A model generated the notes under the pieces. That model had not been told where the DNA came from. It saw only the letters and a list, made by a program, of their open reading frames with translations, and ran no database searches. A DNA stretch of 64,000 bases from a virus. A program made the translations under genes and the position numbers. The stretch covers positions 1 through 64,000 of IMG/VR virus record IMGVR_UViG_3300032288_004702; one strand, written 5' to 3'. How positions within the stretch are numbered: the stretch's first letter is position 1; the number at the start of each line of letters is the position of its first letter. Positions 8,232 through 32,207 of the stretch are shown here, one piece after another.

Positions 8232-9587
8232 TCAGGCAGGAGCGCTGTCGAAGTCCACCTTCACGAAGGCCTCTGGGCGCTTGACGGCTAGTGCCAGTCT
8301 CTGCTCTGCGAGGATGACGATGGCGTTGCGGACGAAGAAGTCCGAGTGCTGCTCGCTGATGCGGATGCTGGCCTCTTCGCGGTCGTACAGCTGAGCGCCG
8401 GTGCCGAAAGCTCCGACAAGGGCTGTACCCTCTTCCATCGCTGGGGTGTCGACGATTGGCATTCTCCAGACGCGTGGCTCGCCACCCATCGCAACAGAAA
8501 CTGCGATGAGGTATTGACCCTGCTCGTCCTTCGTCAGCTCGATGTCCTCCCAGTCGTTCGGGTGCAATACGACGCCCGATGGCTCGTAGTAAGCGAGGAA
8601 CGAGAGAGTTGCAGCGCGGCGGATTGCGTCAGCCTTGGTGTCGGCGACCGGTGCGGCAACGCCGTCCGACCATGCGTACTCCTGAATGTTCGGTGTCTGA
8701 AGAACGCCGAGCAGGTTCTCGCCAGTGCCATCGCCGTTGAGGATTTGGTTATCCTCAAGAAGACGAAGACCGTACATGAGCTCGTTGTCGATGATTGAAC
8801 GCAGCTGCGGCTCATCGGCAAGAACGTTACGGTGTGCTGCTTCCCAGTGCGCAAGGGTGCGAACCGGAGCCTGCTCGCCAACAAAGGCGAACGATGACTG
8901 CGGCTTGATACCGAATGCGGTGTTACCAGCGTTGCGCTCAGCGACAGAAGAAGCTGAGTTCGTGCCATGACCAGCCTGAAGCGTGGTGAAGCCGAGCTGA
9001 CGGAAGTACTCAATCACTGCGGCATTTGTCTTGCGGACCGGGAACAGGTCGCGAACGCGCTTGGTGCGCATTGGCGGTGTTACCATCGGGTCACGCTGGA
9101 CGGTGCCGAATGAACCGAGACGGCTGTCGCCAACTGCAGTTGTCGGCAGGCCTGAGTACACGTCCTTCACGTTGTATGAAGTTAGTGAAGCAGCAACTTG
9201 CCACGGAGCAGCCATGTTTGCACCGTTGCGGCCACCATTGAGGGCCTTGAACTCTGCTGACTCAAGGAACAGCTGACCGATGCTCTTGATTTCGCGTGAT
9301 GAAAGCTGGCTTAGGTCTGCAGCGGCAGCGGCGTATGCAGCAGCAGCTGAGTCACCTGAAGGCTGTGAGCCCCAGCTGTCAACGTTGTTCATGGTCTCAA
9401 GGTCGCCAAGCAGTGACTTGATTTCCTTGATGTCGCGCATGTTCTTGTCGAATGCGCTCTTTTGCTCTGGAGTAACGACAACGGTGCCGTCCTCAACTCT
9501 GAATGAATCTGCGATGGTCTTATTGTCTGCCATCTTCTGACGGAGTGCTGATTGCAGCTCCTCGATGCGGGCTTTGTCTTCCGACAT
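8232..9587 (-). CDS. Major capsid protein, HK97 fold
   Basis: The 451-residue protein is the shell subunit. Its first ~95 residues are charged and helical (starting KARIEELQSALRQKM), like the HK97 delta (scaffolding) domain. An alanine-rich linker follows, and then LSSR at residues 95-98, close to where HK97 capsid protein is cut (residue 103). After it come typical HK97-family features: IGQLFLESAEFKAL, the MRTKRVRDLFP and FVGEQAPVRTLAHWEAAHRN segments, the GDGTGENLLGVL turn and the C-terminal FFVRNAIVILAEQRLALAVKRPEAFVKV. The ATG has AGGAG 8 bases upstream. A candidate promoter lies about 120 bases upstream and a hairpin follows the stop. The codons are more G+C-rich than those of neighbours, as expected for a highly expressed gene. 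Confidence 0.95.
   Translation of the reverse strand: MSEDKARIEELQSALRQKMADNKTIADSFRVEDGTVVVTPEQKSAFDKNMRDIKEIKSLLGDLETMNNVDSWGSQPSGDSAAAAYAAAAADLSQLSSREIKSIGQLFLESAEFKALNGGRNGANMAAPWQVAASLTSYNVKDVYSGLPTTAVGDSRLGSFGTVQRDPMVTPPMRTKRVRDLFPVRKTNAAVIEYFRQLGFTTLQAGHGTNSASSVAERNAGNTAFGIKPQSSFAFVGEQAPVRTLAHWEAAHRNVLADEPQLRSIIDNELMYGLRLLEDNQILNGDGTGENLLGVLQTPNIQEYAWSDGVAAPVADTKADAIRRAATLSFLAYYEPSGVVLHPNDWEDIELTKDEQGQYLIAVSVAMGGEPRVWRMPIVDTPAMEEGTALVGAFGTGAQLYDREEASIRISEQHSDFFVRNAIVILAEQRLALAVKRPEAFVKVDFDSAPA
9294..9305 (-). other. LSSR motif at residues 95-98 of major capsid protein (predicted protease site)
   Basis: The motif lies at the junction between the helical N-terminal delta-like domain and the capsid fold, close to the known HK97 cut at residue 103. 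It resembles the LSSG motifs of the two giant proteins, so it may mark what the phage protease recognises. Confidence 0.5.
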
Positions 9588-9708
9588 TACTTTTCTCCTC
9601 TTTTGAGATTAAGTGATTTGGGTTGTTGGGTTAGCAATGGCTTAGGTCAGCACCCAGCCCTACATATAAACAAAAATAACAGATGATTGACATTATTCAG
9701 TGGAACTA

Positions 9709-9736
9709 ATAATATTTTGCAATTAAAGTGTGTAAA
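9709..9736 (-). promoter_or_regulatory. Candidate promoter for the major capsid gene
   Basis: On the minus strand TTTACA and TATTAT are separated by 16 bases, close to a sigma-70-type consensus, in an AT-rich gap of 167 bases before the capsid gene. The untranslated leader would be about 110 bases. Confidence 0.35.
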
Positions 9737-9754
9737 TAGATAGAGCGTAAATTT

Positions 9755-13757: not shown

Positions 13758-14262
13758 TTTCGGTCTCCTCTAGCTGGCGAAGAAGAAGCATCGATTTCCA
13801 TGCGAAATCACGTTCTTCCAGCGTTTTGAATTCATATATATTGACATCTAACTTTATCATTCCATCACAGCATGAATTGGTCAGCATTTTCTGTTCGATG
13901 TCCCTGTCGATAAAGGACTTGACCGCTCTTTCTGTCTTGTCAATCTTTTTCCCCTTTTTGCCAACAGATTTCTTCGCTGGCATCTTGTCAAGCATTGAGT
14001 CTTTTATCGGGCGTGTCTTTTCTATGAAAGTTTCGTACCATGCTCCAGATGTTGGATTCTTTGGCGCATCCCACAGAAATCTCTGAAAGGGTGTTGAGCG
14101 AAGCTTTCTAAAGTCGCGAGCAGTTGCCGCGATGCTCATTATGTATCCCTTTACGGTTGTTCCATCCGGTTTTTCTATTATTGCGTCTTTTTCTCCGGGC
14201 TTTGCTTCGGCGTTGTAGTACACCCTGCTGTCGTTTAGTAGGCCAACAAGTATTGATTTCAT
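13747..14262 (-). CDS. Capsid-block protein with SCCDGM motif, function unknown
   Basis: The 171-residue product starts with a strand-rich region (ILVGLLNDSRVYYNAE), has a lysine-rich centre (PAKKSVGKKGKKIDK), and then NSCCDGMIKLDVNIYEF, a cysteine pair followed by strands. The C-terminus is helical (FAWKSMLLLRQLEE). The cysteine pair echoes CCGG in the two large neighbours. It overlaps the stop codon of the 2401-residue gene by 4 bases and the next gene by 11 bases. No function is known to me. It may be a partner or chaperone of the adjacent large protein. Confidence 0.55.
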   Translation of the reverse strand: MKSILVGLLNDSRVYYNAEAKPGEKDAIIEKPDGTTVKGYIMSIAATARDFRKLRSTPFQRFLWDAPKNPTSGAWYETFIEKTRPIKDSMLDKMPAKKSVGKKGKKIDKTERAVKSFIDRDIEQKMLTNSCCDGMIKLDVNIYEFKTLEERDFAWKSMLLLRQLEETENVN

Positions 14263-17200
14263 AGCATCCCGCCAGACGTGGAGGTTATTTGTGGCCTGCG
14301 GCTGTTCTTCATCTCTTTCATCATGTCTTTTGCTGCTTCGGTTATTTCATTTCCGATAGCTTTAATCAGGACAGACTCGACCGACTCCCCACCCTTTGCT
14401 GCCTTGGAGTGTGAGCGCGGGTCCTCTATGTTGAAGCCTGTTGGGTGGGCAAACTTAATGTTGTTCAATCCCTTGCCGGCCATATCTGTCTTAATTTTTT
14501 GCGCCGCCCTATACTGCCTCAGCATTGCCATGCTCTGCGTGTTGATGTTTTTGCCGCCACCAATTGAGTAAAAATACTGAATCTCTTCTGGCGTAAATCC
14601 AGCAGCCCTTAGCCTGTCCGCTATGGACCGCTCGTTCACTGCGTCGCTGATATCTTCTTTTTCACCGGCAGCTTCTAGTCTCTTGAATGGGATATTAATC
14701 TGTTCAATTTCATTTACATCGAATCCGCCAAGTATCTGTGCCTCAAACGGCTCTCTAGATGAGCCATCTGGGAGGTTTCTATCGAACGAATTAGGCATTG
14801 CGCCCTTTGAGCCCCTAGATGCGTTTACGTTAGAGAAGTCATTGTTGATTGATGACGACAACATATGCAGGAATGCTTCCTGTGCTTGTTGATTTCCGTT
14901 TATCCCATCAGGATTAAGGATTGCGTCGGCAACATCTTCCCTATTTCGCGAGTTCAGCTTAACTGGGCGATGCGCCGATGATATCGAGTTTCCACGACCA
15001 TAGGCAGTTCTCTCTGACACAGATGGTCTTAGGACGATTTCTATGTCACCAAATGCGGTCAAGCCGTCACCAACAACATCTTCATCGCCTATTTCGTACA
15101 CCGCGTCTGGTCTTAGATTTCCATTCCTGGAATTCATTATTTGCTGTCTCTTGGCGTCAATGTGCGACTTATGAACAAGATAGCCGCTGACCGGCAAAGA
15201 GTCGGTTGGTACGGAATCTGGAATGCCTATTCGCGAGTAGTACTCCCTTGCGTAGTTTTCCGAGGATAGACCAACAGTCTTCCCAGACTCTATGTCTTCA
15301 CCCTGGTTGGCATTATTCGCAGAACGACCACTTGATAGTCGCAATTTCGCCATTCTTCCAACATTTTCTCTACCACTGGAGAGCCTTGACGACCTCTCAA
15401 TATCAGCAGCGCGAATAATTTCATCTAGCTGGCGCTCTCTTTCTATTGCAGCAGCGCTCGGGCGTCTTGTGTCGGCTAGTCGACGCCTATTTTCAAGAGC
15501 CTCAGCGTAGTTTGCATTGTTTTTTAGGCCAACAGAACCAAGCTGGATGTAGTCGCCTTCTGCGTACTTTTCGTCAATAAGTCGTGGTGCATTTTCCGAG
15601 AGGTCGACTGATATTGCATCAAACTCCTCTTGAGTTATCGGTGATATATCTTCCTGACGGCCTTCCCACTGTAGTTCAGCACCAAGACGCGCCTCCTTAA
15701 TGCCGAAAGCGTCCTGGAACACCTTTCCAAGAGTCAAACCCTCAACAATGTCTGTTTGGACTTCGTTTGCAGACAGGGGTATTTGAAGTTCTTTAGGAAG
15801 AGACCTATTCCCTACAACAATTCCAGCCCACCTATGATGGCCGTCAAGAATGTAATTATCTTTGGTCGTTAGGATTGGCTGCATAAACCATTCCTTGCCC
15901 ATCTCTTCCAGGTACTTCTCTCTAAATTCTGAGTCAGATAGACCTGGTGACTCTTTGCGTATTCTTTCAGCTACCTCGATGGCTTTTTCCTGAATTGTTT
16001 GAGCAGTGCCGTCTACTTTTGATGCCACTAATTGCTGTTGAGATGGCGCGTATTCACTCGGGTCTACTGTTCTTAATCTGACTGCTGGGCCATTTTCTGG
16101 GTCCTCTACAGTTATTATGCCATTTAGCCAATCAATAAATGGCGTTTCAAGGTTTACCTCAGTGTCGTTCCAGTTTGTATTTTCATAAAGCCACTGTTTT
16201 GCGGCATCAGAAAGATTGTCAAAAGAAGCTGCTTTATGCTCTCGTGCCGTAGTGCCGCCGAATTCATTGCGTAGCGAATGTTTTTCAGCAATTATTTCAT
16301 ATAAAATTCCGGGGATTTCCTCGTCTGATACTGGGTCCTCTGGCTCGTCTAGCTCTGCACGCTTCTTATTTATTTTTGCAATTTTTGCGTCGAGCTCGTC
16401 GGCGAATTCTATTTCTAGCTCGCGATTGCGCTTTACTCCATCTTTTGAGGGCTCCCATTTACCCGCAGCAATTCCCGCCTTAAGCGCCATTATCGCCTTT
16501 GTGTTTTGCCCAGACGACCTACCGTTAGTCTGCGGCATTTTCGCCCTATCAATTCCTATATGCCCTGAACACATAAGGTTATTTTCCGGGTTATATAGCG
16601 AGCATAGGTCGGCCTGGTAGTTGCCAACGTACTCATCTTCCATGTCTTTTCTGGTTTTGGGGTTGTCCAGGTCAGCATCTGGATTCAACTTTGCATATTC
16701 ATCCTGGAATGCCTTCCATCTTGGATGCCCGTCTTCTATGTGTTTTTTAGCTACTTCCTTTACCTGTTTCTCAAAAGCTTTTTGCGCCTGCTCGGTCAAC
16801 CTGACATCCTGGTCCTTAACTTCAACATGGTGACCGAGCATCATGAGAGCTACTGCAGTAGAAACATCATCAACTTCATAGAGGTTTGAGTCTTTTTCGC
16901 TAATTGACTTTCTACCTGACCTTTTAACGGAACCACCAAATCTCCTTGATAGTTCAGCGTCAGACATATCATTTACGTTTTGTCCGCTGTTAATAATGTC
17001 GTCAAAGACGGATAGGGCGCGTTTTGCTACTTCTTTTTCTTGACGTCTACGCTCGGCTAAATTTTCACTTGAATCAATAGTTCTGCCTGAGGACAGACGT
17101 GATGAGCGTTGCTCTGCTGGCATCCCGGCGAGGCGCTCTGCTCTCCTAGATGCACGTGAAGCCTCGTCTGAAGGCGATGAAAACGGAGAGCGTATTGAGC

Positions 17201-20200
17201 CACCTGACGCAAGTCTTTCGATGTCTGCATCAGTCGCGCGTACCCTGACTCTTCTGTCAAAACCTTCGTGCATTCTGTACGCGGCCATCTGCGCTCTAAC
17301 TATAAGTACCTCTTCTGGAACATTAGCAATCAGGTCTGCAACTTCCGGATGAATATCACCTCGAGAAATACTGCCGTCACCGCGTCCTCCGCCAAGCGCC
17401 TTTTTGATGTTCCTCGTGATGGATGACATTCTTGATTCGCGCGACTGGGTCCTCTGCTGTCTTGTGGCAGGCCTGCCAAGAGCATCACTTTTTGTCTTTG
17501 CCATAATTGTCGCCGACGCTGCAGCTGCAGCAGCACCAGATGAAAGCCTTGATGAGCCATCTGGCAATTCATCAACACCTTCGCCGAATGAGCCCCCAGC
17601 GTCTATGACATCATCTAGCACTTCAGAAGTTGATTTAGCCGCCGACTCATCGTAGTCGCTCCGCGGGCCCGGGAATGTGTCCCCAGACGCGCGTCTCTTC
17701 GCAACATATCTGTCTGCAACAGCCTGTATCTTTTTCGAGTGGCTTTGCGCCCATATGGCATCAGTTTTATTCTTTGACAAGCTATCTGCCATACTGTCGA
17801 CAACTTCAACAGCGTCTTTCTGGTAAGAAATTTCTGCCCGTATCGTGCCATCGGAATCCCGGCCAATAATTCTCAGCCTTCCAGGCGGTGCAACAAATTT
17901 CTGTTCGCCTTCTCCGCCTGTTGCCGGGAATAGGCCACGGTCACCCTCTCTCACCTGGACAACTACGCGTCGTGAAGTTCTGCCAGTTTTGGCGTCTCTC
18001 CTGCCACGTTCTGGCATGTCTGTCTTTTTGGTTCTGCTTGTTATCACGCGACCAGAAACAAACTTATCAACATCAACTTCCTTCCCGTCCATTTTGCCCT
18101 TTAGGGCCCCTGGTTCGAAGTCGATAATCGCTTCTATTTCAAATGGGTCCGCGACAGACGTACCGTCGATTGCTTCCATCGTTGGTATTAAGAGTTTTTC
18201 GACCTGCTGAACAGCATCTGCTTCATCGGAAGACATTGGGTCAACCTCTAGGCCAAGACGCTTGAGTCTTGCGTTTCTCTTGTTCATTGCACGCCCAGCC
18301 CTTGTCTGGTTGGCGGGGTCAAGAAGCATCCCAACGTCAGATTCCGCTACGTCACCGAGCTCTTTCATGGCTTTCTTTTGTTCTGGCGTAGCTTTTACAC
18401 GTCTGCGCTCACGTGCTCCGTGGTCAGCAGCTTCTTTTGCGCTCTTGAACTTCTTGCTTGGCTTGGGTGGGGGGCTTATTGTGTCCTTTACCCTCTTATC
18501 AATATCTCTCTTAATTGCCGGAATACTCCTGGTATCTCCAGCTTCTTTTAGATTCTTTGCATGTTGGTCTTTTACAACATCGATACGCTCTGCGAGGTCT
18601 CTTGCCTCAGGCGATGCTGGGTCCATTGTTGAAAGGCGCACCTCATCGTCGGCAAGCTTGCGGATTACTTTTTTATCCGGCATACCCTTTACGCGCTCAC
18701 GCAAGTCATCTAGGTCTGCGAGCCTTGCAATTTCTTCCATTTCTCCTGCATCCAAGAGACCCTCGCGCTCCCTGATGGCCCGTACTTTTTCCTCAAAACG
18801 CTTCTTTTCGCCACTAGCGCCAACGCCATACTTTTTTCTCCATAGCTTTGATGCTTCGTCATATCTTTTACTATGAAAATCGAACTCCCTCTGGGCATCC
18901 TTTATCGCTTCTGATTTAAGAAGTTCGAGCGCACTTCTATCATCGTCTGGTAGCGATGGGTCAATTTCCATTGCACTAAAACCATCAACTCTGCGCTTAG
19001 CATCATCGCGCTGAGAGGCAATTATCGCAGCCTCGCTAAACATTTCCTCTTCTGGAAGTTCGCTGAATGCTGTCTTGAATCGCTTTATTTCCTCGCGCAG
19101 CTCCGATGCAAGTCTTTCATCCCTATCCGCAAGCGTCTCTTCAATAACGTCTTCGGGAATATCGTCCGGTACGGTAGTCGGGGTTGGGATGCGGAATACA
19201 TCGTCCATTGACTCCATAGCCGAATCGTCGTCTGCAGAGGCCCTTTCACGCGCTGCGGTGGCAAAACTGAGATTGTCCATCCACTCGAGAGCAGCGTCTA
19301 TGTCATCGCCATAGATGATTCCACGCTCACGCAGTGCCCACAATTCCGCTGCGGCCTCTAGGGCCCAAACCTCAGTGCCTTCGGCGTATACGTCACGCGG
19401 ATATGAGCCCGCAAGTGGAGCTATAGCCTTGATTCTCTCCATTGCGTCATCAAGTGACTCTATGTTTATCGAGTCGGCAACGTCTGTCATTATTGCCATG
19501 ATGTCATCGCCGTTTAGAGCATAAATAGAGTCAACATTCCTTGAGCCGACTGCGACCCCATCGCGCATTATAGGAACAGATATGAAACCCTTTTCGTCTA
19601 TTTCATTTTGAATCTTTTCGACAAACAATTGAGCCTGTCTGTGGTGTGCCAACTCGTGGAGCATAATGTGCCCCGAAAAAGAGTAAACGCCATCGATTAG
19701 GCCTGCCATCCCGCGAGCCGCATAGTCGGCGTTAACCAAAAAGTCAGCCACTGCTAGGCGAGATTCAGCTTCGCTTCTTGCTCCAACTGCAGAAATCGCA
19801 AGACGTTCATCTGGCCTCATATCGGGGAGCATTGACTCCTGGTTTGCCAGAATCATCCCCATATTTATGTGTATGACGCTTCGCAGTTCCCCCGGAACCT
19901 TGCGCATAACTGGATTGCCATCGCGGTCAAGAACTGGTGTTCCGTCTGGATTTAGTCGTGGAACAAGTTCTGGTGCGGACCTATAAACACCTGTTCCAGC
20001 TTCATCTGGGGAGTTAAAGTCATATTCGATTCTGCCCAAAAATCTTGTGCTGGATGGGTCCTTCATGAACTGGTCAAGAAGTGTTTCGAATAATGCTTTC
20101 TCCGTATCTTGGTAGCGCTTCACGTCAGCATCAAGAAGTCGAGTTTGCTCTTCTTTAGACAAAGAAGGCCAGCCAGGTATTGATTCAAGACGTGCTTCAG

Positions 20201-21464: not shown

Positions 21465-21478
21465 CTGGCGCCCCCTTT

Positions 21479-23062
21479 TCAGTCGTCGTTCAGGGTGTCT
21501 TCGAGCAACTGGAACTCAACAAGCGATGCCATAAAGTCTGCGTCGCTAACATCGCCGGCTTTCTCTTCGCTGCCAGCTATCCAGTTTGCGGGGATAAGGC
21601 TTTCAAGCTTGAGCGCTCTTGCGCGCTTCATGATGTGCTTCTTGGTAGCTTCTTTATCCTTGGCGCGCCCAAAAGCTTGAATTGCATTACGCAAGTCATT
21701 CTCGGAAACTATTGGGTATGAGCCGTCAGCCATGGCCATGCCCTCTTTTGCGAGGTCCATTCTGCGCTCTTCAGAGAAAGCACGCTTTAATGCAATCTCG
21801 GCAGCCTCTGCCTCGATTTGCTCAACCTCATCAGCTTCGTACTTGTCGTAGCCGAGGACTTCTCCGTCAAGAGCAACAAACACGTCATATGATTTGCCGT
21901 CAAAGCCTTCAATTTCTACCGCATATGCATCAAAGCCCTCGAAAACATCTGGCTCTACTGCAATAACAGTTCCATCTATTGACTTAACAGCAATTTCTGC
22001 TGCCTCAGTGAAGTCAATTAGCTTGTAGCTCACCGAGTCGGACTTCTGCTCGAAGCTGGAAGAATCAAGCTTGTGGAATCCGAGTATTTCTGCAGACTGG
22101 CCGTCGATGAATACCTCATTGATTGAGCCGTCTTTGACTTGAACGTCAACGACGAACATGTCGGCGTCAGACGAGTATCCGGAATCCACGACCACACCGC
22201 TGAACATTTTTTCGGCAAGACCCTCAACGTGGAGGATTCCTGGCATACCTTTTTCTGCGACGCACCCACCCGGACAGTCATCGCACACCTGGGAAGAGCC
22301 GCCGTACGCCTTGCGCTCTATGGCGCAGACATAACCAGCTGCTCCAACATCTGAAACCTTTAGGCCCATGGACTTGATTCGCGCTCTGCGAATCTCCTCC
22401 CATTCAGAGTCCTGTGGTGAGAATGACTTTGTACCCATCTCTGAATACTCCTCTTCATCCTCCTCTTCGTCCTCCTCCATTTCGGGCTCTTCATCCATGC
22501 CCTCTTCGTCTTCAAGCGAAGCCTTTGCGCCCTTCATGCGCGCAATGCGCTGCATTCGTGCACCGCGGCCGCCATTGGAAGCCATCATCTTCTCTTCATC
22601 GGATTCCATGTCCTCTTCGTCTTCTGGCATATCCTCGTCAAGCTCGTCCTCATCAAGCTCGTCCTCTTCTGCCATCATCTCTTCCGACTCGTCATCCATC
22701 ATTTCGGCCATTCCGGCCTTTTTTTCTGGCATGTAAGCAGCCATCTCTTCATCTGAGATTTCTGGCTCTTCTGACTCGTCTGTCATGTCAAGAAGTGCAT
22801 GCCCCGGCTTTTTTTTGTTCATCTTTTTTGTTGCAGAACCAGCAGCTGTTGGGTTCATTGCGTCCTCTGCATCGACGTTCTCGTCTTCCACTTCCTCGTC
22901 CATCGCTGGGACCATTTTCATTTCGACCGGCATAGCTCCGCATTTGGCGCAAATTTCAGCACCTTTAACAAAGCCGCACTCAGATGCTGCAGCGCCCTTG
23001 GCACACTTCAGGACGTTGCCGTCGCTGTCAATGCTTACAGTAGCTTTCTCGTCGTATTTCAT
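21479..23062 (-). CDS. Acidic scaffold-like protein with cysteine modules, PepSY-like repeats and a DUF6582-like C-terminus
   Basis: The 527-residue protein has an N-terminal cysteine cluster (C20, C29, C38, C41), a very acidic, methionine-rich low-complexity stretch (roughly residues 90-200), and a second cysteine group (VCDDCPGGC near 270). Two strand-helix units follow (about 285-430; for example VQVKDGSINEVFIDG and FVALDGEVLGYDKYE) that resemble PepSY domains, which inhibit or chaperone peptidases. A C-terminal segment (NDLRNAIQAFGRAKD, then HIMKRARALKLE) matches what I recall as DUF6582. High acidity and the position next to the prohead protease suggest an internal scaffold. The PepSY-like units might hold a protease in check; this is inference. 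A dedicated promoter with a dyad lies upstream, and GGGAG precedes the ATG. Confidence 0.65.
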   Translation of the reverse strand: MKYDEKATVSIDSDGNVLKCAKGAAASECGFVKGAEICAKCGAMPVEMKMVPAMDEEVEDENVDAEDAMNPTAAGSATKKMNKKKPGHALLDMTDESEEPEISDEEMAAYMPEKKAGMAEMMDDESEEMMAEEDELDEDELDEDMPEDEEDMESDEEKMMASNGGRGARMQRIARMKGAKASLEDEEGMDEEPEMEEDEEEDEEEYSEMGTKSFSPQDSEWEEIRRARIKSMGLKVSDVGAAGYVCAIERKAYGGSSQVCDDCPGGCVAEKGMPGILHVEGLAEKMFSGVVVDSGYSSDADMFVVDVQVKDGSINEVFIDGQSAEILGFHKLDSSSFEQKSDSVSYKLIDFTEAAEIAVKSIDGTVIAVEPDVFEGFDAYAVEIEGFDGKSYDVFVALDGEVLGYDKYEADEVEQIEAEAAEIALKRAFSEERRMDLAKEGMAMADGSYPIVSENDLRNAIQAFGRAKDKEATKKHIMKRARALKLESLIPANWIAGSEEKAGDVSDADFMASLVEFQLLEDTLNDD

Positions 23063-23122
23063 ACAACTCCCGTTAGTGCAGGGAAATGACCTGATGGACC
23101 ATTAACCATTAAATGTCTTTAA

Positions 23123-23152
23123 ATTATAACCTATCACGCTATACATGCGTGA
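23123..23152 (-). promoter_or_regulatory. Promoter with TATAAT -10 and an inverted repeat for the scaffold-like gene
   Basis: On the minus strand a perfect TATAAT (23128-23123) is preceded, 5 bases upstream, by TCACGC-7 nt-GCGTGA (23152-23134), a 6-bp dyad filling the -10/-35 spacer. The dyad could be an operator, or the terminator of the upstream 2977-residue gene. The leader would be about 50 bases. Confidence 0.45.
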
Positions 23153-23189
23153 ATTAGCAACACCAGTTAGTTCTGTTCAATTTTTATTG

Positions 23190-26100
23190 CTACTTTTTGC
23201 CAGAGGTTCTCTTCTTGCCTGAGAGTGTTTCCCCAGACTCGATTCTTTCCCTAGCTGTCCTCAACTGCTCGTCGCTAAATATGTCGTCGATGGTGTAGCT
23301 GGTGCCGAATATTTCATTAAACCTGTCAACCATTGATTGCATTTCTGCGCCAGAGAATCGCGGCTCATTTCCCTTTTTGGGAGACCATGGGGAGCCTTTC
23401 GCCGTGGCAGCAGCGCTCAGTGTCACGCCCATGTCCGTTGCCCCAGTGATTCTGTTCCGATTATCTCTGTTATTAAGTCTTGAATCAGGGAAACTCTTGT
23501 CAATGAACTCGTTTAATGCTTCATAGACAACATATTTTGAGTTTTTAAGTTCTGAATCAAAACGCTCGCCGGTATCTCCGTCTTTCCAGACTGACGAGGC
23601 GTCGGGCAGAACGCCGGTCCTAATCATCTGCGCAACGGTTGCAGTTGGAATTCCGTTCTTTGACCATTCATTGTTAATTCCGACATCGTCGGTACCAAAT
23701 GCGGCAGAAAGTCTTTCTTGCAATCCCTTTTTCCACTCCGCCCTGTCTATGCCGAGATAGTCAAGTAATGGCTCGATTTCAAAGTCTTCTCGTGAAGTCT
23801 TGTCTGCGATTATTGCCTCGCCAGCGCGCGCAACCTGCTCATCAGATGGGTTCAGAAGGTCGAATGATTCGCCGTATAGGTCAACTTCAGCCTCGGAATC
23901 ACCCTTTGTTGCGCTGTCTGGGGCAAATCGTCCAGTTGCACGGAATTTAGAAACCTCGCTGACCTCACCTAGCTGAGCGTACTCATCCGGCGTCATTGAC
24001 TCGTTCTCTTCCGTGTCAAACCAATGCGGGAAAGCGTCTTTACCGAATGTCTCGATAATGAATCTGTCTCGCATATTTGCGCGTCCAGCATTCTCTCTTG
24101 CTAGGTCAACATATGGGATATTTTCCGTCGTGTCGCCATCTGGGGATGGGATAATTCTCTTTGCCTCGTCAGCCGTTACGGGGGCAAAATATCTCCATGC
24201 TGCAAGGTCTGGCTGTTTGCCGAGCTCGGCAACTAACAAACGAACTGCATCATGGTTGATACCGGCGTCTGGCTCCTTGATTTTTGCTGTGTCGGCAGGG
24301 CTCAGTCCGAGCATTTTAGCCAACTCTTCACGTGTTGCTGGCCTTGATTGCGTCCAGCGAATCGTGGTGCCGCCTTCAGTATTTTCCCGTGAGGTGAACT
24401 CCGTTGGTATCCGTATTGTTTCGGCGAGCTTGTCTACCGAAAGCATCCACGTCTCAGCAGAAGGATTCTCGTTTCTGGAGTTGTCGCCAACTCTTCCAAC
24501 TCTGACGCGGTTCTGCTTCATCTGCATTGCCTTGCCAACATCCCTCATTGCCCCGCGCGTTCTTTGCTGGCGCTCATTTACTGAAAGGTCGTCAACATCG
24601 ACATCGATGGCAATGCCACGCTTGCGGACGCCATCCCATGCCTGCATTGCGTACTGTAGAGCCTCGCGATTTCGTGGAGTATCTGGGTTGCCATCTATGC
24701 GTATGCCGGCAAGCTGCTGGGCGCTAAGTGTGCCTGGATAAATGCTGCTTCCTGCGACGCGGCGGCTTCTGCGGCCAGGACGAGTGCCTGTCGCGCCGCT
24801 AGATAGGCGCATAGCTGTTCCATCGGCATTATCACCGTAATCCGCTTCCCCGTCTCCATCTATGTCATTGTCACGAATAGAGCCATCGATATCGTCATCT
24901 GTATCGATGTCGTCAGGTTCATAATCTTCTTTGTCTATGCCAATTTCGTTACCGTTTTCAGACCCAGGACCATCAGTAATCATGTCGTCCGTGATGACAA
25001 TAGGGCTATCGTCTTTTTCTTCCTTCTTATTCCCACGAGGTGGAAGGTTTTCAAAGTCAATATCCTCGAGGCGCGTTTCATTTAGTTGTTTATAGAATGC
25101 TGGCAGAGGTATCCCGCCATCATCGCTGAAAGCGCCTTTGTCAAGCTCCTGTGGGATGTGCCCATCTTTCACTGCCTGCGTCATTGCTGCGCGAATGTCT
25201 TTGGTCTTTTCATCATGCAAGTAGAATGCAAACGCTTTTGCGCCGGGGTCAATCATTTCCTTGGCGCGCGACATCGCTACGTGAACAAGGTTCGCTTCTT
25301 CCATGTAGCCGATAGATGCTTGACCAGGCTGTAGGGATTGGGCGATTGACTCCGCAGGGTCGCTCAGGTCTTCTGCTATTGCAACAAATCTCGACTCGCG
25401 ACCCTTTGACAGCTGCATTGTTGTTATTTCAACATCTCCGCCAGCATGTCTTGCCTCATCGCGTAGCGCTTGACCAATTCTATTTAGAATGTCGGCGCTT
25501 TCTTCTAGCGTTGCCCCCTCGATAACAAAACCATCATAAGCGCGTCGCTTTGCGTTTCCTTTCATGCCCTTTTCGGCTCCAGCCTGCGGTTTTACTTTAT
25601 CCTGAAGCCCGAGGCGCTTGATGATTTTTTCTAGGTCTCTTCTATAGCGTCCATTGCCGCCCTTGCGGTTTCCTGGAGGCTGGTTTGGAGACTGTGAGCC
25701 ATCTGGATTATCGATTGGACGCCCAGTATCAGCGCCATCTCCAGTTATCAGAATACGCCCAGTTGGCTTTCCTGGTTTTTTATTATCTCCGCCATCGATT
25801 TCAAGCTGTGCATACACTGCTTGGCGACCATCATTTGCAAATTTCGGCTGCGGTATTATTATTATTTGAGCCCTTTGGCTATCGATTGCCTGAACTGCCT
25901 CTGCAGCAGTTTTGCCGCGGGATATCCGAAGAACCTCTTCCCGTCCCGCAGTAAACGCATCTAGCTCAAGGGTCTTTCTTTCCGGGAGAAGACTTGGCGG
26001 TATAACCTTGACAATCTCTTTTCCTTTGTCGTTGGTCTCTCTTATCTGGCGCCCTTCAAGGAGGGTCAGCATGCCCATCGTTCCAAGTGGAGGGGCAGTT

Positions 26101-29100
26101 TTGTCGCCCTTGGGAGGCTCCATAATTAGCCTAAATGCAGTATTTGCCTGCTGATATCCAGCTTGATTAAGAATTCTCTCCAAGCCCTTTGCATCATAAA
26201 TCGGCCCAAGCCAGCTCGACTGTTCTGGAAGGCCAAACTTTTTCCTATATTCAGCTTTTGCAGTTGGCGACTTAAGTATGTAATCGAGATGTTTTGTAAA
26301 TTTGAGCAATTCTTCCCATTTGCTCAATGGGATGATTACTTCTGGCAGCTTCGGCAACCCATTTTCGTCGCGCTCAACGGCATCGCTATTGATTACTAGG
26401 CGTACGAAGTTAAGGGCCTCGTTGATTATCTCTGCGTTGCTTCTACACAGAATCATTGTTGGTAGATTGCCCTTATCGGCTTCTTCGACTCTGTCAACAA
26501 TCTTGCCAGCCTTGGGGCCGTATAGACTGTCTCTTAGCTCTGTTAGCGCAACATCTTGGGCATCGCGGTCCATTGCCGATATGTCAAGTTTTTTATCCGG
26601 CGTGGAGAATTTCTTATCTATGTCGGCAATCATTAGGGCGCGAGTTGCGTCGTCTACTTCATCTACCGGGTTATTACCTTTTCTGTCTTTTTCAGGGAGG
26701 AGGGGGTCGAAAAGTCTATTAATAACAGTCTGGGCCTGGCCCTTGACGTGTTTCCACGGGAGCTGGGGAACCCCCTGCTTGCGCAAGTAAAGATTTTGTT
26801 GCCCAAGAACAAGGTTAGCTAGATGCCCAATCACTTCCCCATATCTAAATGATTCTGTAATTGTCAATGCGTAGTCTGCATCCAGTGATTCAAGAATATT
26901 CTTTGCTTCGCGGAAAGCATAGACAGCCTGCCTATCGTCGCCCACAATAACAATAGGAAGATTTTTTCTGTTAGCGTCAAGAACGGCTTCTAGAACCTCG
27001 TTTGAGTCCTGTGCTTCGTCCACCATAAATGCGCCAAGTGGATTTTCTTTTGTTGCCATTCTTTTTGCGAGTTTTGCCTCGTTGTTTTTGCTGCCTTGCT
27101 GTTTTTTAACAGAAGTAACAATCCACTCTGCGCCATCTTTATCGACAATAACGTCGCCAACGGAGTACGAGTTTGGTATCTGGACCTTGTCTCTTGTTTG
27201 ATTTTCGGTATGTGTTATAAGGCCTGGGTCGCTGCGAAGGTCGGGATTTGTCAACATCCACAGTTTGGCAATTGAATCCCGTGGCGGAAGCATGTTGTTG
27301 TTACCGTCAGACATTGCGTCTATCGCTTTTTGTAGGTAACCGACCCATGAGTCTGGGATTTGCGCATCAGTCAAGACGGTGTCTACGGCGTGACGTTTTT
27401 TGCTTTGGCCCCTCTGTGTATCGAGTTCCTGCAGCACCCTTTCGGATGGTGTAAACATCCATTTTGCTGCTTTTTCTTCTTTTGATATATTCCAACGCTT
27501 AAGCGCATTGTTGAATACGTCTCCCATTTCCTCAATGGAGACGAATGTGCCGTCTGGGAGATTGAAGCCAGTTACTTCATACTCCTCCATTTGGGGCTTT
27601 CCGTCAGGGCCACGAACAACCTTCCCCTTGGCGTCCCTCACTTTGCGGCGTCGCTTCTGGGTTATCTGGTCTGGCCACTTATCCATGCCAAGGAACTTGG
27701 CCCAGTCCGTGCCGTCGTCTAGACGCTCCCATCCAAGGGCTCTGTATCCAGGCTCTTCTCCTGAGAATGTTTCAAAAGAGCCATCAAATAGTTCTCTTAC
27801 ATAATCAAAAGGAATGAACTCTGGCTCATCTGGGGTTTTTTCTGCGCTGATGAATTTTGGATTCTTTTTTGCACCGCGCGTCTTTTTTGATTCTGCACCG
27901 AGAAGAGCGAATTGCATTTTCCTGCGCATCCCCACGCCGTATCTCTCGTCCCCCTGGCCAAGCTTCAGAGACCAATACCAGAGCTTGTCGGTCGTGGAGA
28001 TTCCGGTATTCTTGGGGAATTCAAGTTCTGCTTCGAGCTGGTTCTTTTTATTGAACACTGCATAGTAGATATTGCCAATTTGATTTTCTTTTGCAAGCTT
28101 GTCTACTGCCGCCTTCACCTCATCAGCAGACATACCAGAGAAATCGACCTTGTATCTGTCCGCTAGATAGGCAAGCTGCTCGTCGCGTCTCTTATCGCCC
28201 TCTGGCCAAAGGTCAAACTCGCGCTGCAATGCCCACGCAATGCTCTTGAGTGTCGTTGTTTTACCAGTTCCGGCGCCGGCCAATATTGACAATATGCGCG
28301 GGTCTTTTTGTCTTATCAAGCGCATTGCGACATCCATGATGTCCCTCTGCTCATTTGTTGGCTCGTTTGCTAGACCAAAAGCAAACTTCATTGATATTTT
28401 TTCGTCTGTCCGCTCTACCTCTGGGACGCCATCTTTGCGCCCCTTAATTGGCCCGGCTGATTTACCACTGGCTAGACGACCGGATGGCGTTATTACAATT
28501 CCGTCCTTATTCTTCGACGGAGCATTTGGTGAGCGGTCAAATGAGCGAAGCTCGCGTTCGGCGACGCTTAGATTGACTGCGTCTGGAACAAGAGCTTCAA
28601 ATTCATCTGTATCCAACAGGTCTTCCATTGGTCCAGTTATTGTCGTGGTTGGCTTTATGCTTGGAGCGTCTTCGTAGCCGGCAAGCATCGGAACCTCAAA
28701 CCACGTGTCCATCCTGCCCTTGCGCTCGTCGTCCGGTATTCCGGCGAGTCGGCGCATTGTCGCTGAACGATTAAGCAGGTAATCGTTTGCCTGCTGTGCC
28801 TGAAGAATTGCGCGATGAAGGGCGAGTGGGTCCTGCTTCAGTTTCTTCAGCCATGAGTTTAGGTAAAGAAGATGGTCTTCTCTGACGGTTGGCTCAAGAC
28901 CCATTGCGCCCATTGCAAATGCTGAGCCAATTTCAGCAACAAGTTCCTCAAATGCATACTGTTCATCACCGAACTGCAAACCGAGCGTTCTGTTAAGTCT
29001 TGTTGGATGAGAAGTCCAGTGAATGGTCTCATGCATGGCGGTCCCATAGAAAGCAAGTGCATTTTCAAATTGCTCAAACGCCGGCATGTGTATTTTATCT

Positions 29101-32100
29101 GTTGATGGGCGATAGAAAGCCTGTGAACCCTTAGACTCAACAAACGCAGGACCAATCTCCTGAATTACGTTCTCAATATCCTGAAGCCGCTCTTCCTGAT
29201 TTATCTCTAAATCATCAACTTTGTAGAACCTTTCAGGAAGGCCCTCTACATCGTCAACGTTATAAACAGTTTGGACAACGTAGAATTTTCCTTGACTCAC
29301 TTCTTTCCCGTCAGAGCCAACAAACGTTCTTCCCTCGCGAGGTACCAGAATTGCGACACCCTTGCTGCGTGCCCCGGGCTTTAGTCGACCACCCAAACGC
29401 TTCCACTGGCTCTCCCCTGCCCACCTGCTGGTTTTGTATCCGCGCGCAGAACCAGTAAGTGAAAGAATCATCTGGTTCATGCCCTGATAGATGCGACCGC
29501 GCGTTGGATTACGCGCGTATAGCTCTGGATTTCTCCACGGCATCTTCCACTGCCCAGCCTTGTCTGGGTTATCAATTAGCTCCTGTAGGAGGTCGACAAT
29601 GTTCTTTGCCATCTCTTCGTACAGCTCTTGTAGCTGAGATGAATCCTCCGGAAGCTCCGCTTTGTCTTTTAGCTTTCCTGAAGAAAGTGAAGCCAGTGGA
29701 CCGTCAAACTTTCTTGCTTCATCGCGCGAGCGCTTGGACTCTGGCTTATCCAGGTACTTGGCATAACCACTCGACAGCATCTGCGTGTCGGCTGCCTGCG
29801 ATGCTGTTTTTGGAGCCTTGCGGACAATTGATTCTTTTTTGGGTTTTGCTTTTGGCTTCTTCTCGCGCTCCATGTCGCGTTCTGCAAGCTTTTCAACCCT
29901 CTTCATGTATCTATCTAGCTCGGCAATAGCTTTCTTTAAGCGCTTTACCTGCTCTGGGTCGGTCGCACCATCAAGTACACCCTGAAGCTCATCTCTCTGT
30001 GATTCCGCAATTCCGTATTTTTGAGCAGAATCAACATCCGGGTCGTCGATGCGGGGGAGGTCAAACAGTTTTCCGCTACTCAAAACAAAATCATCGGCTG
30101 ATGAGGGTTTTGTGGGGGCTGGCCCACGTGAATACTTGCCCGGCTTTTCTCTGAAATTTTCATCAAGCTCCGGTCTACTGACCGGTTTGGTAAATTTTGG
30201 TACCCCTATTTCAGACTCTGGCTTGGCGAGCTGGCGTGGTGATGGTTTTGGGTTCCTTATCGAGCCTGGCCCATCTGGTGTCGGGTCCGGCGTGGCGAGG
30301 GGTACGCCTCGGAGAAACAATCCCTCTCCAACTATCCCGTTAAGGTTTGCATCACGAGCTGTGAATGGGTCGAAGTCTTCCGCCCCAATTGATGTGAAGA
30401 ATCTTCCGCGCGAGCGTCCGCCACCAATGTTTGGTCTGTCTATTAATCTGCTGCCGATTGCGCGGCCAAGCCTATAGCCAGCCGCTTTCCATTCTATGTC
30501 GTCTTCAGTTAGAGATTTTTTTTTTAGGTTTTCTATAGCGGTATCAACCGCCTCAATCAGTTCGTAGCTAACGCCAGACGTCATGACGATTCCATCAACG
30601 TCGACAAACGAATCAACACCGTGGTAATCAAAAATTGGGTCTAGGGCCTGCTTTACGCGGAATGCAAACTTGGGCATTATCGGAAGCACATAAGCCTTGC
30701 CTGAAACATCGTCATCGTCAGGCATTCCAAATTCGCTGAGCGTCTTATACTTGCGGCGCTTCTTGCGACGTCTGCCGATTGCGCCACGGAGGCCAGCTAT
30801 TAGAAGTTCCCCTGGGTACTTGACCTCAAGGTCATATACGTAATCCTCTTCGTTTACTTCTTCGTCTATCTCGTAGCTCTTCTTGGCCATTGCATCGCCA
30901 TTAACGACGCCATTAGGTATAACCGCAAAGCGGCACTTGCCCTCTGACTCAATGTCCATATCAATTATCTTGCAGGAATTTCCACCCTGGAAAAAGACGC
31001 AGTTCGCGCACTTAACCCCAATTCCCGCAACCGGGTTCTCGGCTGCTGGCTTATATCCAGCCCATACGCCGTCCGAATCCTCGTTGAATTTGCCGTGGCG
31101 CTTTACGATTTTTAGCAACGCATCGCGTAGGTCGGCTTCCTCTTTGTCGAGGTTGTTGGGGTCAAAATCTTGTTCTTTTTCGTTTTCGTACTCAACCGGG
31201 GGAAGGGGGACGATTCTGTTTCCATTCTCCCCAGGCTTAATCGCTATCGGCATCGACGGCATTTGCGGAGGGCGCACAATTCTGCGTGGCTCATCCATTG
31301 GCATCATCGGTTGAGACATTGGGGCGACCGGCTTGCGTGTCGGAAGAACTATGATTTGCTCTGGTGCGCCAAACATGAAACGACCATGATTTCGGCTAAA
31401 TCCACACTTGAAGCGCCCAACCTCGCCATTTTCCATTCTTTTAGCGAAAGTTATTTCATCTTCCCCAATATCCATAAGGGAGACTTTTGAGCCAATGATT
31501 GTTGCTAGCTGCTTTTCTAGTTCGGCGCGGTCGATAGAGTCGTCTTCGTCGTCCATCATGGCCATCGCACCCATTGCCATGTCCTCCGACTTTACGGAAA
31601 TAGTTCCGGTGAGCTGATTTGCCCCATGAAGAACTGGGGAAACCTCATAAAGCTCCAGCTCATAGATGACATTCGCCTGAGACTTCTGGTCATATTGAGC
31701 GCGCAGGGTCTTGTAGCCAATTGACCACTCCTGCTCTTCACCAAAAAACGCAACCATCGCAAATGCTTCGCGGCCTTTTTCTGAGTTAAGGTTAAATTGC
31801 ACTCTTGCAAATAGACCGCCGATGCCGGCCATCTTCATTTTCATCGGGAGGCGCGGGTCGGTATTGGGAACTTCGTAAATCTCTAGAACTTTTCCGATTG
31901 GGTCGTTCCAGTTGTGCCCCCATACAACTCTTGGCTTTCTGCGCTGGAGGCTCTTCGTAAAAGCCCCACTGGAAACAATGTCGCCTACGGAGTCCCTATT
32001 GCCAATGCCGGCAACAAAACACTCAACTATCCCCTGAGCCTCGTCCAGATTAATCGCTCCGGCCTTAGCGGAAATCCCGCTACCTAGCGAAGTTGACTTA

Positions 32101-32123
32101 TATTCGAACAGTTCAGCCGGCAT
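23190..32123 (-). CDS. Giant (2977-residue) polyprotein: prohead protease, ArdC-type antirestriction/metallopeptidase, SF1 helicase
   Basis: Domain order by residue: 1-~180, HK97-type S78 prohead protease with H70 (WGHNW), S134 (EWSIGY) and the ELYEVSPVLHGAN strand; 372-~400, a CANC...C...C cysteine module; ~590, an EF-hand-like loop (DANLNG); ~820-1110, an ArdC-like region (KMPWRNP, then the metallopeptidase H1031-ETIH with EELVAEI downstream); from ~1255, a UvrD-like superfamily 1 helicase with Walker A GAGTGKT at 1283, VDEAQD at 1701-1706, GDDRQAVYAF, and motif VI VAMSRAK near 2283-2288; then an unknown basic/acidic C-terminus. LSSG at 681, 783, 813 and 2440 and LASG at 1217 fall between the domains. 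It follows the portal gene, the usual place for the protease. I chose the ATG at 32123 (GAAGGG upstream) over a TTG one codon earlier. Confidence 0.9.
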   Translation of the reverse strand: MPAELFEYKSTSLGSGISAKAGAINLDEAQGIVECFVAGIGNRDSVGDIVSSGAFTKSLQRRKPRVVWGHNWNDPIGKVLEIYEVPNTDPRLPMKMKMAGIGGLFARVQFNLNSEKGREAFAMVAFFGEEQEWSIGYKTLRAQYDQKSQANVIYELELYEVSPVLHGANQLTGTISVKSEDMAMGAMAMMDDEDDSIDRAELEKQLATIIGSKVSLMDIGEDEITFAKRMENGEVGRFKCGFSRNHGRFMFGAPEQIIVLPTRKPVAPMSQPMMPMDEPRRIVRPPQMPSMPIAIKPGENGNRIVPLPPVEYENEKEQDFDPNNLDKEEADLRDALLKIVKRHGKFNEDSDGVWAGYKPAAENPVAGIGVKCANCVFFQGGNSCKIIDMDIESEGKCRFAVIPNGVVNGDAMAKKSYEIDEEVNEEDYVYDLEVKYPGELLIAGLRGAIGRRRKKRRKYKTLSEFGMPDDDDVSGKAYVLPIMPKFAFRVKQALDPIFDYHGVDSFVDVDGIVMTSGVSYELIEAVDTAIENLKKKSLTEDDIEWKAAGYRLGRAIGSRLIDRPNIGGGRSRGRFFTSIGAEDFDPFTARDANLNGIVGEGLFLRGVPLATPDPTPDGPGSIRNPKPSPRQLAKPESEIGVPKFTKPVSRPELDENFREKPGKYSRGPAPTKPSSADDFVLSSGKLFDLPRIDDPDVDSAQKYGIAESQRDELQGVLDGATDPEQVKRLKKAIAELDRYMKRVEKLAERDMEREKKPKAKPKKESIVRKAPKTASQAADTQMLSSGYAKYLDKPESKRSRDEARKFDGPLASLSSGKLKDKAELPEDSSQLQELYEEMAKNIVDLLQELIDNPDKAGQWKMPWRNPELYARNPTRGRIYQGMNQMILSLTGSARGYKTSRWAGESQWKRLGGRLKPGARSKGVAILVPREGRTFVGSDGKEVSQGKFYVVQTVYNVDDVEGLPERFYKVDDLEINQEERLQDIENVIQEIGPAFVESKGSQAFYRPSTDKIHMPAFEQFENALAFYGTAMHETIHWTSHPTRLNRTLGLQFGDEQYAFEELVAEIGSAFAMGAMGLEPTVREDHLLYLNSWLKKLKQDPLALHRAILQAQQANDYLLNRSATMRRLAGIPDDERKGRMDTWFEVPMLAGYEDAPSIKPTTTITGPMEDLLDTDEFEALVPDAVNLSVAERELRSFDRSPNAPSKNKDGIVITPSGRLASGKSAGPIKGRKDGVPEVERTDEKISMKFAFGLANEPTNEQRDIMDVAMRLIRQKDPRILSILAGAGTGKTTTLKSIAWALQREFDLWPEGDKRRDEQLAYLADRYKVDFSGMSADEVKAAVDKLAKENQIGNIYYAVFNKKNQLEAELEFPKNTGISTTDKLWYWSLKLGQGDERYGVGMRRKMQFALLGAESKKTRGAKKNPKFISAEKTPDEPEFIPFDYVRELFDGSFETFSGEEPGYRALGWERLDDGTDWAKFLGMDKWPDQITQKRRRKVRDAKGKVVRGPDGKPQMEEYEVTGFNLPDGTFVSIEEMGDVFNNALKRWNISKEEKAAKWMFTPSERVLQELDTQRGQSKKRHAVDTVLTDAQIPDSWVGYLQKAIDAMSDGNNNMLPPRDSIAKLWMLTNPDLRSDPGLITHTENQTRDKVQIPNSYSVGDVIVDKDGAEWIVTSVKKQQGSKNNEAKLAKRMATKENPLGAFMVDEAQDSNEVLEAVLDANRKNLPIVIVGDDRQAVYAFREAKNILESLDADYALTITESFRYGEVIGHLANLVLGQQNLYLRKQGVPQLPWKHVKGQAQTVINRLFDPLLPEKDRKGNNPVDEVDDATRALMIADIDKKFSTPDKKLDISAMDRDAQDVALTELRDSLYGPKAGKIVDRVEEADKGNLPTMILCRSNAEIINEALNFVRLVINSDAVERDENGLPKLPEVIIPLSKWEELLKFTKHLDYILKSPTAKAEYRKKFGLPEQSSWLGPIYDAKGLERILNQAGYQQANTAFRLIMEPPKGDKTAPPLGTMGMLTLLEGRQIRETNDKGKEIVKVIPPSLLPERKTLELDAFTAGREEVLRISRGKTAAEAVQAIDSQRAQIIIIPQPKFANDGRQAVYAQLEIDGGDNKKPGKPTGRILITGDGADTGRPIDNPDGSQSPNQPPGNRKGGNGRYRRDLEKIIKRLGLQDKVKPQAGAEKGMKGNAKRRAYDGFVIEGATLEESADILNRIGQALRDEARHAGGDVEITTMQLSKGRESRFVAIAEDLSDPAESIAQSLQPGQASIGYMEEANLVHVAMSRAKEMIDPGAKAFAFYLHDEKTKDIRAAMTQAVKDGHIPQELDKGAFSDDGGIPLPAFYKQLNETRLEDIDFENLPPRGNKKEEKDDSPIVITDDMITDGPGSENGNEIGIDKEDYEPDDIDTDDDIDGSIRDNDIDGDGEADYGDNADGTAMRLSSGATGTRPGRRSRRVAGSSIYPGTLSAQQLAGIRIDGNPDTPRNREALQYAMQAWDGVRKRGIAIDVDVDDLSVNERQQRTRGAMRDVGKAMQMKQNRVRVGRVGDNSRNENPSAETWMLSVDKLAETIRIPTEFTSRENTEGGTTIRWTQSRPATREELAKMLGLSPADTAKIKEPDAGINHDAVRLLVAELGKQPDLAAWRYFAPVTADEAKRIIPSPDGDTTENIPYVDLARENAGRANMRDRFIIETFGKDAFPHWFDTEENESMTPDEYAQLGEVSEVSKFRATGRFAPDSATKGDSEAEVDLYGESFDLLNPSDEQVARAGEAIIADKTSREDFEIEPLLDYLGIDRAEWKKGLQERLSAAFGTDDVGINNEWSKNGIPTATVAQMIRTGVLPDASSVWKDGDTGERFDSELKNSKYVVYEALNEFIDKSFPDSRLNNRDNRNRITGATDMGVTLSAAATAKGSPWSPKKGNEPRFSGAEMQSMVDRFNEIFGTSYTIDDIFSDEQLRTARERIESGETLSGKKRTSGKK
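24795..24806 (-). other. LSSG motif, residues 2440-2443 of the 2977-residue protein
   Basis: Context MRLSSGAT. It separates the helicase from the unknown C-terminal ~530 residues and follows an Asp-rich linker. Confidence 0.5.
28464..28475 (-). other. LASG motif, residues 1217-1220 of the 2977-residue protein
   Basis: Context GRLASGKS. It is a near-match of LSSG at the junction between the ArdC-like region and the helicase. Confidence 0.4.
29676..29687 (-). other. LSSG motif, residues 813-816 of the 2977-residue protein
   Basis: Context ASLSSGKL. It lies immediately before the ArdC-like region. Confidence 0.5.
29766..29777 (-). other. LSSG motif, residues 783-786 of the 2977-residue protein
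   Basis: Context TQMLSSGYAK. It lies 30 residues before the next copy and ends a lysine-rich helical segment. Confidence 0.5.
30072..30083 (-). other. LSSG motif, residues 681-684 of the 2977-residue protein
   Basis: Context DFVLSSGKLF. It follows a proline-rich linker after the protease-containing N-terminal part. Confidence 0.5.
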
Positions 32124-32207
32124 CAAGAGGCCCTTCTTTTGCGTCTATTCAAGATAATAAGCGATTGGGAAGTCTGTTCGTAGCAACTATTGCTTTAAGT
32201 TTTGAGT

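Follow-up and report, generated by a model that had tools for sequence, protein, structure and literature searches.

A recurrent [LFM]-x-S mark at module borders of giant phage proteins: a candidate cleavage signal for a fused prohead protease

The stretch of viral DNA analysed here (the window, 64,000 nucleotides of a 156-kb virus record) encodes two giant proteins, a major capsid protein and a tape-measure protein. Two of these, giant 1 and giant 2, had been described as carrying a recurrent tetrapeptide, LSSG or LASG, referred to below as the mark. The features considered are as follows; a third giant protein lies farther along the record.

8232..9587, (-) strand: major capsid protein, lacking LSSG; its N-terminal coil is delta-like (phrog_10, E 5e-58; alignment)
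14259..21464, (-) strand: giant 2 (P2), 2401 aa, with HExxH within its first unit
15327..15338, (-) strand: LSSG at residue 2043 of giant 2, not conserved
15372..15383, (-) strand: LSSG at residue 2028 of giant 2, kept in near relatives
17085..17096, (-) strand: LSSG at residue 1457 of giant 2, conserved, in a linker
17202..17213, (-) strand: LASG at residue 1418 of giant 2, in a predicted helix, probably incidental
17535..17546, (-) strand: LSSG at residue 1307 of giant 2, in a disordered linker
21479..23062, (-) strand: acidic 527-aa protein without a mark, between giants 1 and 2
23190..32126, (-) strand: giant 1 (P1), 2977/2978 aa, consisting of S78 prohead protease, ArdC-N/zincin, UvrD-like helicase and C-terminal unit (Pfam/PHROGs matches)
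24795..24806, (-) strand: LSSG at residue 2441 of giant 1, past the helicase
28464..28475, (-) strand: LASG at residue 1218 of giant 1 (LSSG, LASG or FASG in relatives)
28809..29627, (-) strand: ArdC-N plus MPTase-PolyVal zincin module of giant 1 (PF08401, PF18818)
29676..29687, (-) strand: LSSG at residue 814 of giant 1, immediately ahead of ArdC-N
29766..29777, (-) strand: LSSG at residue 784 of giant 1
30072..30083, (-) strand: LSSG at residue 682 of giant 1
30177..30455, (-) strand: GSRxIDRP...GGGR element of giant 1, directly preceding the first mark (module comparison)
31578..32030, (-) strand: Peptidase_S78 domain of giant 1, candidate cutting enzyme (PF04586, E 7e-14; PHROG head maturation protease)
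48998..53785, (+) strand: tape-measure protein (1595 aa), which also carries marks
49103..49114, (+) strand: LSSG at residue 36 of the tape-measure protein; a mark is present here in 10/11 genomes
50738..50749, (+) strand: LSSG at residue 581 of the tape-measure protein, in a variable Gly/Pro-rich linker
G000:145149-154334, outside the 64-kb window: giant 3, 3061 aa, with nine LSSG and one LASG

All eight LSSG and the LASG that the preliminary description had listed in giants 1 and 2 were found in place (for giant 1 it counted from the ATG, 1 below the present numbering), and the phenomenon proved larger than it had stated. It had also called the motif rare by chance, in agreement with the ~0.06 copies expected in giant 1. 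The mark consensus in the present phage is S-x-R-L-S/A-S-G-R/A/K. Relatives of giant 1 were found in at least 599 viral-contig stretches, and the marks at residues 682, 784, 814, 1218 and 2441 of giant 1 and at 1307 and 1457 of giant 2 are conserved in relatives; LSSG 2028 of giant 2 is kept only in near relatives. Across five linkers, motif columns were 58–100% conserved versus 33–46% for the flanks. The sites are thus conserved and the surrounding linkers are not, with the non-conserved LSSG 2043 as the exception. LASG 1418 of giant 2, which had not been listed before, is probably incidental, because it is predicted to lie within a helix, and the stretch around it is conserved while the motif itself is missing in most relatives. 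In the AlphaFold2 model of giant 2, all four LSSG lie in stretches with pLDDT<50, which make up 24% of the residues; in that of giant 1, the marks at 682 and 784 sit at the edges of disordered stretches and that at 814 in a loop ahead of ArdC-N. Two minor sites excepted, neither of the sequence-based conditions that the preliminary description had named as refuting its reading, loss of the motif in homologues or a position within folded domains, was borne out by the relatives and the models.

The 46 giants of 11 related phages contain 178 LSSG, versus a mean of 3.9 and a maximum of 12 in 200 shuffles, which rules out chance or composition as the source of the marks. The other proteins of these phages hold 13 LSSG (1669 proteins, 348,364 aa), and the rest of the 156-kb record has a single LSSG besides those of giants 1–3 and the tape-measure protein. 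The two tape-measure copies were absent from the preliminary description though inside the window; giant 3 was beyond its view.

The marks coincide with the borders of modules whose order differs from phage to phage. Ends of local homology fell within 15 aa of a mark in 327 of 691 cases for giant 3 (60 expected, maximum 129), 90 of 368 for giant 1 (20 expected) and 58 of 210 for giant 2 (9 expected). Modules between marks contain whole domains, such as the ADP-ribosyltransferase (PF03496) and RNase_T (PF00929) that giant 3 joins, as polyvalent-type domains, in one polypeptide; the GSRxIDRP...GGGR element of giant 1 reappears in giant 3, within its first ~130 aa (module comparison). Giants 1 and 3 each carry two or more unrelated conflict-related domains (ArdC-N, MPTase-PolyVal and helicase in giant 1), with recurrent sequence-specific sites between them as in a polyprotein. 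At the DNA level, 22 sites are encoded by 22 different 12-mers that use both Ser codon blocks. Because 22/22 sites are coded differently, selection acts on the peptide and not on the DNA, and a DNA recombination signal is excluded as the identity of the marks.

An unbiased search found that phages use their own [LFM]-x-S dialects (LSSG, FSSG, GLxSRR, GLRSST or LRSSG), with no dialect in some fused relatives, e.g. L255, L297, L302 and L309. The dialect of giant 1 matched that of the other giants and the tape-measure protein in 15/16 genomes, with near-empty off-diagonals, as is expected if they are all cut by one trans-acting protease whose specificity drifts. The N-terminal tape-measure mark keeps its place while its dialect changes (KLSSGR in G000, GMRSST in G024). 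The protease tree shows two origins of Leu-to-Phe dominance, which P1 and the other marked proteins have in common; Leu/Phe usage in P1 and in the others is correlated (r 0.93, permutation p 0.010). Within the protease, a Q/H that the Phe-only clade has in GDIVxxGAF is a candidate specificity residue, though only a lead, because the sequences that carry it are sister lineages.

The S78 domain is present in every fused P1. Its VWGHNW and EWSIGY motifs are conserved, with VWGH and EWS invariant among 23 homologues; we take these to hold the catalytic His and Ser, respectively. The portal gene lies just upstream of the S78-bearing giant 1 and the capsid gene in the same gene run (11 genomes). The AlphaFold2 model of the protease unit is of low confidence, and the S78 domain had no sequence match in the PDB; nor did the C-terminal half of giant 2 have a PDB fold match at E<=0.001 (best E 0.08). 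The major capsid protein is the usual substrate of a prohead protease, and the tape measure belongs to the tail. Neither sequence nor alignment revealed an LSSG in the capsid protein here, where L-[ST]-S-[RSH]-E, at about residue 121, is only a weak candidate mark.

From these sequence comparisons we consider it quite likely that the giants are polyproteins cut at [LFM]-x-S marks by a phage protease, most likely the S78 unit of giant 1. In such a scheme the [LFM]-x-S core would separate functional modules, and cutting would most likely follow the second Ser, with Leu or Phe at P3, any residue at P2, Ser at P1 and Gly, Arg or Ser at P1'. Giant 1 would be cut by the protease in cis; giants 2 and 3 would be its trans substrates, as would the tape measure, which would be trimmed at its marks. 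Products released in this way, presumably packaged in the virion, would include the protease unit, the ArdC/zincin, the helicase, the ADP-ribosyltransferase, the exonuclease and other modules. The earlier proposal that the marks divide the giants into separate proteins is strongly supported by conservation, module borders and disorder. Its second part, cutting inside the head by the prohead protease with which giant 1 begins, keeps that enzyme as the best candidate, but because the tape measure is marked and the capsid protein has no LSSG, the head may be only part of the story, or cutting may occur before or outside it.

It is unlikely that the enzyme is instead a zincin-like metallopeptidase inside the giants. 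HExxH zincins do occur in giants 1 and 2 and nearly always in giant 3 (first 11 genomes), and Iyer et al. (2017; PMC5512222) proposed processing of this kind for polyvalent proteins. The ArdC zincin of giant 1, however, is missing in some relatives that do carry marks (L253 and L176, for example) and so is not required as the enzyme, one giant 3 (in G022) lacks HExxH, and known prohead proteases act on sites of this short P3-x-P1 type. In every genome in which giant 2 was identified it has its zincin, so presence and absence cannot single out S78. We regard as improbable an uncut docking or packaging tag bound by a phage protein that changes along with the marks: a coordinated dialect needs just one trans-acting recogniser, and an assembly tag would fit polyvalent proteins and a tape measure, yet a single tag per protein would be enough, whereas the marks stand one copy per linker at shuffled-module borders, beside a fused protease. 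Cutting by a host protease, with dialects tracking the host, is very improbable; a host factor would also be trans-acting, on head as well as tail proteins, but the dialects largely follow the phage S78 tree, and the marks are restricted to giants and tape measure where wider gain or avoidance of sites would be expected. Plain flexible linkers or DNA-level recombination sites can be practically dismissed, for although Ser and Gly suit linkers and modules are shuffled at the marks, a linker has no need of an invariant Leu or of a changeover throughout the genome to Phe, GLxSRR or LRSSG, and the codon and dialect tests, with differing coding DNA at 22/22 sites, contradict both.

To our knowledge, tailed phages are not known for polyproteins of the RNA-virus kind. 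On balance we favour the broader view that widespread uncultured tailed phages make virion-cargo polyproteins with a fast-evolving, phage-specific cleavage code, which would be read by a fused prohead protease, would let modules be shuffled as marked cassettes and would also govern the tape measure. If so, giant metagenomic phage proteins could be handled by a simple rule (determine the dialect, cut accordingly, then annotate each module), the possible packaging and delivery of very large multi-domain proteins would be explained, and the dialects would form a natural protease-specificity series (P3 Leu to Phe; P1' Gly, Arg or Ser) for studying protease–substrate coevolution.

Literature searches for LSSG with prohead protease returned no description of such marks, the LSSGR/phage matches being unrelated. 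The nearest cultured relatives, Gordonia phages GMA6 and Gray, Brevibacterium phage Cantare and Streptomyces phage Gilgamesh (capsid protein 34–48% and protease 40–44% identical), differ in having a stand-alone protease, and no enriched mark was found in their virion proteins; 'GLMS' in Cantare was excluded as a tail-fibre repeat. The proposed system resembles T4 gp21, SPN3US gp245 and phiKZ gp175, in which one phage serine protease with very short P3-x-P1 specificity (L/I-X-E for gp21, PMC9026906; A-X-E, P3-P2-P1, for gp245, PMC10052503) processes many virion proteins, with several cuts in some head or ejection substrates. Those proteases for the most part strip off propeptides or dismantle scaffold, whereas here giants of 2400–3100 aa would be cut into enzyme modules, the [LFM]-x-S core varies by phage, the protease is fused to a substrate and the tape measure is marked. 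The phage P1 prohead protease Pro likewise trims the capsid protein as well as an antirestriction protein that is packaged in the head (DarA/Hdf), but from separate genes, by N-terminal trimming and without a multi-module polyprotein (PMC12810830). Similar in domain content are the polyvalent proteins of Iyer, Burroughs, Anand, de Souza and Aravind (2017), which are multi-domain and include ArdC-N, MPTase-PolyVal, ADP-ribosyltransferase and nuclease. The accessible part of that paper (PMC5512222) draws the comparison with RNA-virus polyproteins and proposes release by embedded peptidases, and contains no description of a cleavage signal that we could find. It differs in favouring zincins where we favour S78, and its assemblin-like peptidase is said to be always C-terminal where the protease here is N-terminal. 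If the present reading is right, the question it raises, whether and how such proteins are dismantled, becomes testable.

The window covers the first 64 kb of an IMG/VR virus record comprising 156,276 bases. The eight LSSG and one LASG counted in two window giants by the preliminary description were all present on re-check. The tape-measure protein contains two further LSSG and giant 2 one further LASG, and a third giant, outside the window, is the mark-richest.

Marked proteins of this phage
23190-32126, minus strand: giant 1
14259-21464, minus strand: giant 2
48998-53785, plus strand: tape-measure protein
145149-154334 of the parent record (9149-18334 of its stretch L086), minus strand: giant 3, 3061 aa, 9 LSSG and 1 LASG

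The rest of the predicted proteome (~50,000 aa total) holds a single other LSSG, in an 84-aa ORF. Since portal, HK97-type capsid protein, large terminase and tail sheath are all encoded, the virus is a myovirus; PAPS reductase (41050-42189, plus strand) and ribonucleotide reductase (3470-5395, plus strand) genes lie close to virion genes. Giants 1–3 are polyvalent proteins as defined in PMC5512222. Giant 1 starts with Peptidase_S78, followed by a middle part, then ArdC-N with MPTase-PolyVal, then a UvrD-like helicase, and ends in a C-terminal unit. Its protease unit includes a conserved Cys-rich stretch, possibly metal-binding (CANCVFFQGGNSCKIIDMxxExEGKCRFAVIPNGVV, residues ~372–407; window 30906-31013, minus strand). 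Giant 2, without a Pfam match at E ≤ 0.1, carries HExxH; its DGHHR stretch recalls ParB-like proteins. In giant 3, LSSG flanks two domains on both sides: ADP-ribosyltransferase (PF03496) and RNase_T exonuclease. An HExxH stretch is also present. Giants 1 and 2 are separated, at the same position in 11/11 genomes, by a 527-aa protein (21479-23062, minus strand) with a Cys-containing N-terminus, a long, very acidic variable stretch and a strongly conserved C-terminal half; it had no Pfam or PHROG match.

Across 11 related phage records, scanned over their whole accessible length, the 46 giants (119,424 aa) contained 178 LSSG versus a shuffled mean of 3.9 (maximum 12), upholding the earlier claim of an excess over chance. 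The 1669 non-giant proteins (348,364 aa) contained 13, at least one of them in a truncated tape measure. Taken over 196 sites, the consensus context reads S-x-[RSK]-L-[SA]-S-G-[ARK]. Because all 22 sites of this phage differ in their coding 12-mer, with both serine codon blocks used, it is the peptide that is under selection.

The mark was proposed to lie between domains, and in an alignment of 24 giant 1 homologues it was indeed retained within gap-rich, poorly conserved stretches (flank conservation 33–46% vs 51% for the whole protein). In AlphaFold2 models, both mediocre (mean pLDDT 67 and 58), 4/4 LSSG of giant 2 fell within low-confidence stretches, and giant 1 marks either bordered such stretches or lay in a loop. 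The marks are thus predicted to sit in linkers, outside domains. In blastp comparisons between giants of different phages, homology ends clustered at marks much more strongly than in a rotation control, placing module borders at the marks. When the giants are divided at their marks, the resulting modules recur among phages; their order varies in giant 3 and is mostly constant in giants 1 and 2. The element GSRxIDRPxxGGGR occurs in the N-terminal piece of giant 3 and also in giant 1, where it directly precedes the first mark; it is a candidate common targeting or docking piece.

The mark differs among phages. The related contig L176 (protease domain 75% identical) has zero LSSG, its giant 1 having G-[LF]-x-S-R-R instead; [LF]xSRR occurred 33 times in seven relatives of this clade (shuffled mean 1.0). 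An unbiased search of giants returned one mark per phage, with a common core [LFM]-x-S.

Mark dialects in related phage records (G) and contig stretches (L)
LSSG: G000 (this phage), G001, G009
FSSG: G008, G021
GLRSST: G024
LRSSG: G028
GFSS: G023
GLAS: L209
GMRS: L220, L226, L284

In 15 of 16 genomes, the remaining giants and the tape measure most often used the giant 1 dialect, with off-diagonal counts of ~0; the sole exception, G022, mixes two related forms. The dialect list was compiled after inspecting these same giants, and whether giant 1 agreed with the others played no part in the choice. Independent events are few, since most of the 16 genomes inherited LSSG by descent: two Leu-to-Phe shifts and the GLRS, LRSSG, GFSS and SRR lineages. 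The Leu/Phe shift alone gave r = 0.93 (permutation p = 0.010, n = 12).

The tape measure carries a mark at residue 36 in 10/11 genomes, and most full-length copies have a second at ~560–600, in a variable linker. In G024 the residue 36 position is occupied by GMRSST, that phage's own dialect, from which we infer that the recogniser of the mark would act on a tail protein as well. The C-terminal part of the tape measure (residues ~1490–1540) contains SDHATGAAYDL and HLHVVPG, presumably resembling M15-type peptidoglycan peptidases (no Pfam match).

The candidate cutting enzyme is the S78 prohead protease at the giant 1 N-terminus. Its His/Ser motifs are invariant, and in marked relatives such as contigs L253 and L176 the S78 domain is present and giant 1 is without an HExxH zincin. 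Alternatively, the zincin of giant 2 may make the cuts. For the S78 protease, analogy with the prohead proteases of T4 and SPN3US, which recognise P3-x-P1 and cut several head proteins (PMC9026906, PMC10052503), together with the near-invariant P3 and P1 and free P2 of the SRR clade, points to cleavage after Ser, between LSS and G. The capsid protein does not carry the mark. At ~residue 121 it has L-[ST]-S-[RSH]-E in the LSSG/FSSG clade, absent in G024, G028 and G029; this is no more than suggestive. In the protease motif GDIV[S/A/T]xGAF, the variable residue is Gln/His in the Phe-only clade (L070/L076/L078) versus Ser/Ala/Thr in the Leu clade; it is a candidate determinant of specificity. A clade including L177 and L178 has a stand-alone S78 protease (423–480 aa) without extension; its contigs occur in MAGs binned as Gammaproteobacteria, a tentative host.

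Processing by prohead proteases is classical. Polyvalent proteins have been likened to polyproteins, with release through embedded peptidases put forward, in PMC5512222. Full-text searches of a largely open-access literature returned no prior description of such marks. What is new is the punctuation signal itself, present across three giants and the tape measure, together with its dialects, the N-terminal fusion of the protease and the shuffling of modules at marks.
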